Below are positions 27,001 through 28,812 of a stretch of DNA of 64,000 nt, one piece after another. The notes under the pieces were generated by a model, which was not told the origin of the DNA, searched no databases, and saw only the letters and a program-made list of their open reading frames with translations. Positions within the stretch are counted from its first letter, which is position 1. Every line of letters begins with the position of its first letter. The position numbers were made by a program, and so were the translations under genes. Origin of the DNA: Shewanella sp. NFH-SH190041 (GTDB lineage: Bacteria; Pseudomonadota; Gammaproteobacteria; Enterobacterales; Shewanellaceae); contig NZ_AP026070.1 of the NCBI RefSeq assembly GCF_024363255.1, positions 3,472,001-3,536,000 of the forward strand, written 5' to 3'.

Positions 27001-27030
27001 AATAAAAAGGGCCAATAGGCCCTTTTTATT
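27001..27030 (-). terminator. Terminator of the adenine deaminase gene
   Basis: The perfect 13-base arms AATAAAAAGGGCC (27001-27013) and GGCCCTTTTTATT (27018-27030) enclose a 4-base loop. The stem is followed by T-rich sequence on both strands. It lies 20 bases past the stop of the gene starting at 28057. Confidence 0.9.
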
Positions 27031-27049
27031 TATCCAAACATACCAATGG

Positions 27050-28057
27050 TTAGCTATGTTGCGCCAGATAAGCACAGGTTCGCTCAGCTAACTGCTGTTT
27101 AGCTGCATCAGTAATAAAACTGGCTTCAATGGCATTGAGCGTAAACTGAGCCAACTCCTTATGATTCAATGGCAATGCCTCTGCCACAGCCATAAAGTTG
27201 TCAGTCATATAGCCACCAAAATAGGCTGGGTCATCAGAGTTAATGGTGACGCACAATCCACGGCGCAGCAGATCGGTAATATTGTGTTCACTCATTTTAT
27301 CGAACACTTTCAGCCGAGTATTCGATAGCGGACAAACTGTCAGCGGCATGCGATTAGCGGCCAGTTCATTCATCAGCGCTTCATCCTGAGAACAGGCCAC
27401 CCCATGATCGACCCGGGATACACCCAATAGGCTCATCGCATCACGGATATTATCTGCCGTGCCCTCTTCACCGGCATGGGCCACAGTGAGAAAACCGGCC
27501 TCACGAGCTTTGGCAAATACCCGGGCAAATTTCTCCGGAGGATTACCCTGCTCAGAAGAATCCAACCCTACCGCAATAATTTTGTCCCGGTATGGCAGCG
27601 CCATTTCCAGCGTGGCAAAAGCAGATGCCTCATCCAGATGACGCAAAAAACACATGATCAGTTCACTGCTGATCCCCAGTTGCTCGCGGCCGTCAGCCAA
27701 TGCCCGGCTGATACCATTAATCACTGTGGCAAAGGCCACACCGCGATCAGTATGTGTCTGAGGATCGAAAAAGATTTCAGTATGAATAACATTATCAGCA
27801 TGACAATGCTGCAGATATGCCCAGGTCAAATCATAAAAATCCTGCTCATGGATCAGGACATTGGCCCCCTGGTAATAAATATCCAGAAATGATTGTAAAT
27901 TATGGAAATCGTATGCCGCCCGCACCTGCTCTGGCGTCGAAAATGGAATGTGTACCCCATTGCGCTGCGCCAATTCAAACATTAAGTCCGGCTCCAGCGT
28001 CCCTTCAATATGCAGATGTAATTCTACCTTGGGTAAACCCTGAATAAAGTCTCTCAT
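27050..28057 (-). CDS. Adenine deaminase (adenosine deaminase superfamily)
   Basis: This is a 335-residue cytosolic zinc hydrolase. Metal and substrate motifs are intact: ELHLHIEGTLEPD near the N-terminus, VAHAGEEG, RVDHGVACS and INSDDPAYFGGY. The segment GLDSSEQGNPPEKFARVF is characteristic of the adenine deaminase branch (Aah1-like, adenine to hypoxanthine) rather than true adenosine deaminases, though many databases label such genes add. The ATG at 28057 begins the conserved MRDFIQGLPKVELHLH and has AGGGTG upstream. An adenine-type riboswitch with a terminator lies in the leader, so expression probably rises with adenine. The hypoxanthine product can feed the phosphoribosyltransferase at 3955. 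Confidence 0.9.
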   Translation of the reverse strand: MRDFIQGLPKVELHLHIEGTLEPDLMFELAQRNGVHIPFSTPEQVRAAYDFHNLQSFLDIYYQGANVLIHEQDFYDLTWAYLQHCHADNVIHTEIFFDPQTHTDRGVAFATVINGISRALADGREQLGISSELIMCFLRHLDEASAFATLEMALPYRDKIIAVGLDSSEQGNPPEKFARVFAKAREAGFLTVAHAGEEGTADNIRDAMSLLGVSRVDHGVACSQDEALMNELAANRMPLTVCPLSNTRLKVFDKMSEHNITDLLRRGLCVTINSDDPAYFGGYMTDNFMAVAEALPLNHKELAQFTLNAIEASFITDAAKQQLAERTCAYLAQHS

Positions 28058-28121
28058 CACCCTGTACTCTCTTGATAACAGTGAATATCGTGAACGGGAT
28101 AGGCCTAGGGTGCTGATTGCT

Positions 28122-28169
28122 AAAAAATACAAAGAGCAAAGCGCCGGTAGGCTTACCTCACTCTTCGTA
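28122..28169 (-). terminator. Riboswitch expression platform: intrinsic terminator
   Basis: On the minus strand the arm TACGAAGAG (28169-28161) pairs over all nine positions, with one G-U, with CTCTTTGTA (28136-28128). An inner GGTA/TACC helix lies between, and TTTTTT (28127-28122) follows. The first six bases of the 5' arm are the 3' strand of aptamer helix P1, so the two structures exclude each other. Confidence 0.78.
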
Positions 28170-28228
28170 ATCTGGAGTTTACGGTTCCAGGTAGAGACCC
28201 CCGTACCGAATTAACGGGGTTATACGAA
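28164..28228 (-). promoter_or_regulatory. Purine riboswitch aptamer, predicted adenine-specific
   Basis: This 65-base aptamer fits the purine riboswitch fold throughout. P1 is TTCGTA/TACGAA, J1/2 is TAA, and P2 is CCCCGT/ACGGGG with loop L2 ending in the conserved GG. J2/3 is GTCTCTACC (consensus GTTTCTACC). P3 is CTGGA/TCCAG with loop ACCGTAA, whose CC can pair with the L2 GG. The J3/1 base at the position equivalent to 74 is T (GATTA), the adenine-sensing state; guanine aptamers have C. It lies 107 bases upstream of the deaminase start. Confidence 0.92.
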
Positions 28229-28234
28229 GTACCA

Positions 28235-28263: not shown

Positions 28264-28293
28264 TGCTGCTCTGGTTAGGTGCGGATTCTGGCA

Positions 28294-28324
28294 CACTCTC
28301 TCGCGCTGGACAAGCCAGAGAGTG
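28294..28324 (-). other. Hairpin after the usp gene
   Basis: CACTCTCT (28294-28301) and AGAGAGTG (28317-28324) form an 8-base stem, about 50 bases past the usp stop. There is no T run, so it may be a weak terminator or an mRNA 3' end structure. Confidence 0.35.
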
Positions 28325-28371: not shown

Positions 28372-28812
28372 CTATTTCACGATCAGCACAGGACAACTGG
28401 CTCGTGCCGTCACCGCCTCAGCAACATTATCGTGCCATAAATGCGCAAGTCCGGTGCGACCATGGCTGGCCATAACAATCATGCCAATGTCACCCTGCTG
28501 CGCTTCTTTGACAATCTGCTCGGCGATATTATTTTCCTCACAGCGGCGTACCAAGGTTTCCACTTTGACATCTGTATCTAATTTCGCCAGCAAGCCCTGC
28601 ATCTGCTGCGCCGCAACGGCTTCCATATTCTGCATTAACTCTTCTGGCGTAATAGCTAGGATTTGGAAATTTTCATCCCCGGACAGCTGTTCAACAACAT
28701 GCAAGATCCGCAGTCCTACATGGTAAAAATTGGCCATTTCTACCGCATAGGATAATGCGTGCAGAGCAGTTTCAGAAAAATCGGTCGGCCATAGAATATT
28801 GCGAGTACGCAT
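28372..28812 (-). CDS. Universal stress protein (UspA family)
   Basis: This is a 146-residue single Usp domain protein. It starts with the nucleotide-binding NILWPTDFSETALHALSYAV and ends with MVMASHGRTGLAHLWHDNVAEAV and CPVLIVK. The usual ATP-binding pattern G-x2-G-x9-G is only partly kept: the last Gly is replaced by Ala in DNVAEAV, so ATP binding is uncertain. It is followed by a hairpin and lies downstream of a SpoIIAA-like gene on the same strand with an 85-base gap. A stress role is inferred from the family alone. Confidence 0.9.
   Translation of the reverse strand: MRTRNILWPTDFSETALHALSYAVEMANFYHVGLRILHVVEQLSGDENFQILAITPEELMQNMEAVAAQQMQGLLAKLDTDVKVETLVRRCEENNIAEQIVKEAQQGDIGMIVMASHGRTGLAHLWHDNVAEAVTARASCPVLIVK

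Follow-up and report, generated by a model that had tools for sequence, protein, structure and literature searches.

An adenine-class riboswitch with a probable added intrinsic terminator upstream of a probable adenine deaminase gene in Shewanella sp. NFH-SH190041

Upstream of a deaminase gene, Shewanella sp. NFH-SH190041 carries an adenine riboswitch to which an intrinsic terminator has probably been added, so that an expression platform of translational type would have been converted, or supplemented, in this lineage; we give this reading a probability of about 0.7. The element lies on the minus strand of a stretch of 64,000 nucleotides (contig NZ_AP026070.1, positions 3,472,001 to 3,536,000), here called the window, and all coordinates are those of the window. 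Transcriptional and translational platforms are both known for one aptamer class, and conversion between them is seldom visible. Since aptamer, hairpin and gene stay constant across genera while the U-tract varies, such a conversion is testable in a few leaders. The element itself is a real riboswitch of known class and mechanism; its interest is moderate and lies in the evolution of the platform.

An Rfam scan, as suggested in a preliminary description of this DNA, returned the purine riboswitch family RF00167 as the sole match within the window, scoring 69.3 bits (gathering score 37; E-value 4e-10). The match is full length (model positions 1-102 of 102) and spans 28247-28148 on the minus strand, flanks of the model included; a search of the 4.37 Mb genome gave this element as the only RF00167 place. 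The aptamer proper (28163..28229, minus strand, from the RF00167 alignment and folding) is a three-way junction with the conserved J2/3 and the L2-L3 kissing bases. P1 consists of seven standard pairs (28229-28223 with 28169-28163), P2 joins 28219-28214 to 28204-28199, and P3 joins 28190-28186 to 28176-28172. J2/3 reads GUCUCUAC (28198-28191), and the kissing bases are GG in L2 (28207-28206) and CC in L3 (28184-28183), which confirms the purine aptamer first proposed from the letters alone. The alignment reads GAUUACG around the specificity base, with AU as J3/1, and places the U at 28170; we take this base to be position 74 and U74 to be the adenine state, in agreement with the earlier assignment. 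Judged by its sequence, the RNA is a purine riboswitch of the adenine subclass, and we infer adenine as its ligand.

Guanine or another purine derivative as the true ligand is very improbable. U74 can be overridden in some variants, but J3/1 is AU in all seven Shewanellaceae leaders of the window's kind, with AC in examples of permease and phosphoribosyltransferase leaders, and the deaminase of adenine type downstream also speaks against a different ligand. Scarcely credible is a decaying relic without function: the riboswitch can be lost, since near orthologues with 76-78% identical proteins (L108, L110 and L132) are without the element, yet the conserved core is kept in the window and the full-length RF00167 match argues in the same direction, as does a score of 100.1 bits with model R1, the window being among the 49 sequences used to build R1.

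The gene behind the leader (27050..28057, minus strand) encodes an A_deaminase protein by domain match. Its closest solved relatives are 3ou8 (415.5 bits) and 3rys (343 bits), with the next at 127.2 bits, which places the protein nearer to the PA0148 type than to adenosine deaminases; the names attached by NCBIfam (NF006850) and PDB are adenosine deaminase. We take 3ou8, 3rys and their kin to be PA0148-type adenine deaminases, and PA0148 is said, going by the title of a 2011 study by Goble cited in PMC6281700, to deaminate adenine. Because these structures are the nearest and PA0148 is reported to act on adenine, the gene most likely encodes an adenine deaminase of the PA0148 type. The gene upstream (28372-28812, minus strand) encodes a universal stress protein (Usp) and is followed by a gap of about 140 bases, within which the leader begins.

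Behind the aptamer, the arm UACGAAGAG (28169-28161) pairs with CUCUUUGUA (28136-28128) in nine standard pairs, one of them G-U. These outer pairs and an inner stem form the anti-P1 or terminator hairpin (28128..28169, minus strand), which is followed by UUUUUU at 28127-28122. The preliminary description had a nine-pair hairpin with six T, its 5' arm reusing the whole 3' strand of P1. The outer nine pairs and the U6 stand, and the 5' arm does take in the complete 3' strand of P1, with two further bases; the full stem is longer and folds as 15 + 3 pairs, an 18-pair hairpin. Scored for stem and U-tract in the manner of d'Aubenton-Carafa, this hairpin reaches 23.1, against 20.7 for the terminator behind the deaminase gene (27014..27037, minus strand, approximate ends), which was used as positive control. 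A simple terminator scan gave no match, because its rule accepts only simple stems with loops of 3-8 bases. When 28160-28058 was shuffled 20,000 times at the dinucleotide level, 269 shuffles offered the arm a full nine-pair partner, and 3 offered such a partner plus a U-tract.

Co-folding of aptamer and terminator, also proposed earlier, yields two structures in which P1 and the terminator are mutually exclusive and the inner stem of the hairpin is present in both states. With the transcript ending at 28122, enforcing the aptamer costs 6.3 kcal/mol relative to the free fold, which contains the terminator. Up to 28136 the two folds are at most 0.3 kcal/mol apart; they diverge from 28134 to 28128, the difference exceeding 1 kcal/mol only from a transcript end at about 28132 onward, and the choice would therefore be made in the final nucleotides ahead of the U-tract. 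Since the P1 3' strand is used by the hairpin, adenine binding should prevent termination and so turn the gene ON, as in pbuE. Activation by adenine through antitermination, as originally put forward, is thus supported computationally by U74, by the exclusive P1 and terminator and by the deaminase downstream, and is to be read as a prediction from the sequence. In the absence of adenine, the 3' strand of P1 would be drawn by strand exchange into the 18-pair hairpin with its six U, the intrinsic terminator would form and transcription in the cell would stop ahead of the gene. With adenine bound, the closed junction would hold P1 and the polymerase would pass before the terminator is completed, so that an adenine-destroying enzyme would be made when adenine is present.

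A transcript start at the first base of P1, another part of the preliminary description, is unsupported. No hexamers were given there; the pair presumed to be meant, TTGGGC/TTTATC, agrees with the consensus in 6 of 12 letters, and a better candidate lies 55 nt upstream. A promoter scan at 9/12 consensus letters found none. A looser scan fixed the A and T positions in the -10, a rule by which TTGGGC/TTTATC is excluded, and gave as best pair TTGTCC-17-CAGAAT (28285..28313, minus strand; -35 at 28313-28308, -10 at 28290-28285), a weak candidate with 8/12 letters that ends 55 nt before P1 and implies a start near 28278. Across 53 homologous leaders, the distance from the end of the best pair to P1 is 33-61 nt in 34, shorter (7-19 nt) in 9 and longer in 10. 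To judge from this weak candidate, the transcript probably starts about 48 nt upstream of P1.

The comparison with leaders of related genomes, likewise suggested at the outset, covered 53 distinct leaders from e.g. Vibrio, Photobacterium, Moritella, Colwellia and Kiloniella, which are related, so that the counts are not independent. The competing strand CTCTT[TG]GT stands behind the aptamer in 51 of the 53; L157, which is without it, was left out of the counts of second partners, terminator scores and start accessibility (n=52). An alignment of 49 leaders, excluding L098, L200 and L209 with their long inserts, has 94.6% of the hairpin cells paired, against at most 67.7% when the arms are slid. 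The covariation score of the hairpin is 0.172 against 0.088, with 0 of 500 shuffles as high. Two of the five measures stand out poorly: pairs changed on both sides number 4 against 2.8 (reached in 90 of 500 shuffles), and there are 14 further pair types against 11.7 (reached in 35 of 500). The outer part is nearly constant, with six of its nine pairs invariant, and the changes on both sides sit in the inner stem.

The hairpin is conserved; a terminator-like score is rare. Of 52 leaders, the window and its near relative L055 (13.5) have a positive terminator score and the other 50 a negative one, so that termination was rejected as the mechanism common to the leader family. Plain U counts are less strict: runs of at least four U within 12 bases occur in 8/52 leaders and six U in eight bases in 4/52. 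The leaders L080, L084 and L205 (Moritella dasanensis; L080 is identical to L205) carry six or seven U at a distance of 3-4 bases behind the anti-P1 hairpin and do not pass the score; they may reflect a terminator gained a second time, independently.

In 40 of 52 leaders the 3' arm of the hairpin has a second downstream partner at p <= 0.05 relative to shuffles, typically GAGAAAAGCGC for GCGCUUUUCUC, and compensated changes in this partner are visible in L047, L102 and L105. This fourth strand continues into a stretch able to cover the ribosome-binding region. This start cover has z below -1.65 in only 24 of 49 leaders, e.g. L176 (L001, L187 and L193 gave no value). With the aptamer enforced, the accessibility of the start rises from 0.326 to 0.446 in the 52 leaders; shuffled linkers give 0.383 to 0.398, a smaller rise than that of the real leader in 46 of the 52. 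By folding, accessibility increases by more than 0.05 in 37 of 53 leaders and falls in one (L102). Because the hairpin is conserved, the terminator score is rarely positive and the 3' arm has a second partner, the common platform of most relatives looks translational. Without adenine, the P1 strand would hold the 3' arm in these relatives and the fourth strand would cover the start; with adenine bound, the 3' arm would take the fourth strand, the start would open and translation would be affected.

As the window's own mechanism this relay is unsupported: pairing of the 3' arm with a second partner falls short of significance there (p 0.18), as it does in L055 (p 0.22) and in L076 (p 0.26), a leader that was missed by the leader pattern and was added for this comparison. 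What pairs downstream in L055 and L076 is instead the stretch between the hairpin arms (p 0.003 each); in the window the corresponding value is p 0.093. There, the aptamer-enforced fold suggests a possible alternative helix of the adenine-bound state, 28161-28148 with 28107-28090 (28090..28161, minus strand; z -1.5, p 0.093), and complementarity by eye a possible start-site cover, CACCCU (28112-28107) with AGGGUG (28063-28058) before the AUG at 28057-28055 (28055..28112, minus strand). Two of the three leaders have a U-tract. Over all leaders, the U score is not significantly correlated with loss of the second partner (Spearman 0.21, p 0.13). A rebuilding of the platform from translation to transcription would fit these leaders, but it is read from one clade.

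It is unlikely, to a degree that still deserves weight, that the window's switch has stayed mainly translational, the six U being minor or a chance feature and most transcripts reading through. The 50 of 52 leaders without a terminator-like score favor this, as does the start accessibility of the window itself, which folding predicts to climb from 0.28 to 0.48 once the aptamer is enforced; however, a terminator score on a par with that of the gene's 3' terminator argues against chance U, the near relative L055 is likewise above zero, and the second partner of the window's 3' arm falls short of significance. Far less likely is a switch that adenine turns OFF, in which P1 would be closed and the freed arm CUCUUUGUA would pair with the AAGAG that precedes the start, blocking translation. 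The best downstream duplex of the arm is with AAGAGAGUACAGGGUG (-13.7 kcal/mol), but it is no better than shuffles (p 0.18), closing the aptamer gives more access to the start in folding, not less, and the terminator would act in the opposite sign; this candidate was rejected.

We keep to the added terminator as the preferred reading: in the window's lineage a translational platform would have been converted to, or supplemented by, transcription termination. A broader proposal, which we hold tentatively and at somewhat less than even odds, is that of a marine gammaproteobacterial family distinct from Vibrio add, in which helices would relay the signal from P1 through anti-P1 and the fourth strand to the start cover, and in which a few U would have converted one Shewanella lineage to transcription. 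If true, this would provide a natural before-and-after pair for the conversion of riboswitch expression platforms.

Outside the phylum of the window's host, the riboswitch of pbuE controls an efflux pump gene. The gene add of Vibrio vulnificus is presumably of the type found behind 45 other Shewanellaceae leaders, with products 24-28% identical to the window's protein. In Bacillus subtilis, pbuE is adenine-ON, its terminator takes P1 by strand exchange and the decision is kinetic (PMC7707468). The window resembles it in an intrinsic terminator that shares the 3' strand of P1 (here with nine shared pairs, U6 and a score of 23.1), and in an inner stem present in both states like P4/L4, where strand exchange through P1 starts; unlike the window's terminator, which takes P1 only, that of pbuE is described there as invading P3 too. 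V. vulnificus add is adenine-ON at the level of translation, the ribosome-binding site being freed (PMC5847336), and it shares with the window a U74 aptamer before a deaminase gene and the 3' strand of P1 as the switching strand; the window differs from it in having a U-tract terminator. The contrast with Vibrio add drawn in the preliminary description is real, but add is the other paralogue, and the difference lies within one homologous leader family, since Vibrio species carry a window-type leader before the orthologue without a terminator-like U-tract.

Purine riboswitches before an 'adenosine deaminase' and a purine transporter of Shewanella are in print (PMC3223726); in the available part of that account of the purine regulon, deaminase types are not separated and the mechanism is not given. 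A whole-riboswitch covariation model for RF00167 includes a covarying downstream hairpin that competes with the aptamer and is presented as general for the class (PMC13273304). This model was built on terminator-bearing sequences, and the gammaproteobacterial anti-P1 hairpin without terminator and with a fourth strand is not described in the portion of the paper at hand. Since the logic of pbuE (PMC7707468) and control in Shewanella (PMC3223726) are both published, the novelty first attributed to a transcriptional ON switch was overstated. An adenine deaminase leader family with a fourth strand, and with a terminator in one lineage, was not found in the open-licence library searched.

Purine riboswitches occur in 58 of 152 Shewanellaceae genomes, at 77 places, all of which were read. 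By J3/1 and P1 these comprise 7 of the window type (GATTACGAAG), 45 with GATTATGARG, 22 with C74 and 3 others. The seven window-type leaders precede an adenine deaminase 68-100% identical to the window's. In 44 of the 45 GATTATGARG leaders the first frame of at least 120 codons is the add-like paralogue, 24-28% identical to the window's protein and thus equipped with a U74 riboswitch of its own; in the remaining one (L017) the first frame is another, short one. Two frames downstream of C74 leaders were identified, a xanthine phosphoribosyltransferase (L042) and a permease (L070). The U74 elements of Shewanellaceae precede the adenine deaminase, the adenosine-deaminase paralogue and, at three places, a small protein; Vibrio add is not the sole U74 leader in these bacteria.

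The adenine deaminase gene is present in 25 of the 152 Shewanellaceae genomes, with the leader at 7 of the 25 loci. Among 80 named loci with this gene, the leader was recovered in 39 by pattern and in 43 by covariance model at >=67.5 bits, with four further loci at 22.5-34.4 bits; the 29 loci L078-L106 were screened for the window-type leader only. Hosts of the leader are Vibrio, Photobacterium, Moritella, Colwellia, Psychromonas, Marinobacterium, Amphritea, Parendozoicomonas, Shewanella, an Aliivibrio bin and the alphaproteobacterium Kiloniella, and the near relatives of the window's leader occur in records named Shewanella. A class-wide search with a model of aptamer plus anti-P1 hairpin listed 1 of 369 genomes, the window's own, under stricter filters and with few genomes of the order included. 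Kiloniella laminariae (L166) has the leader in full together with a deaminase of 73% identity, which suggests that riboswitch and gene moved together by horizontal transfer. The close orthologues at L108, L110 and L132 (Shewanella hanedai) have another leader in place of the riboswitch.

The small protein behind a U74 riboswitch (L054, L056 and L077) starts with MRQGK. In L056 and L077 the base preceding U74 is C, not A, and the aptamer starts near base 1401 in both L054 and L077. The small protein of L077 has a weak match to HD_3 (23.3 bits, cut-off 22.5), and an unusual target or ligand is possible for these three riboswitches. In the 45 add-like leaders (e.g. L023, L026 and L032) GGTAGAGAC, which precedes the start, is complementary to the aptamer core J2/3, GTTTCTACC, and the ligand pocket itself may cover the ribosome-binding site.
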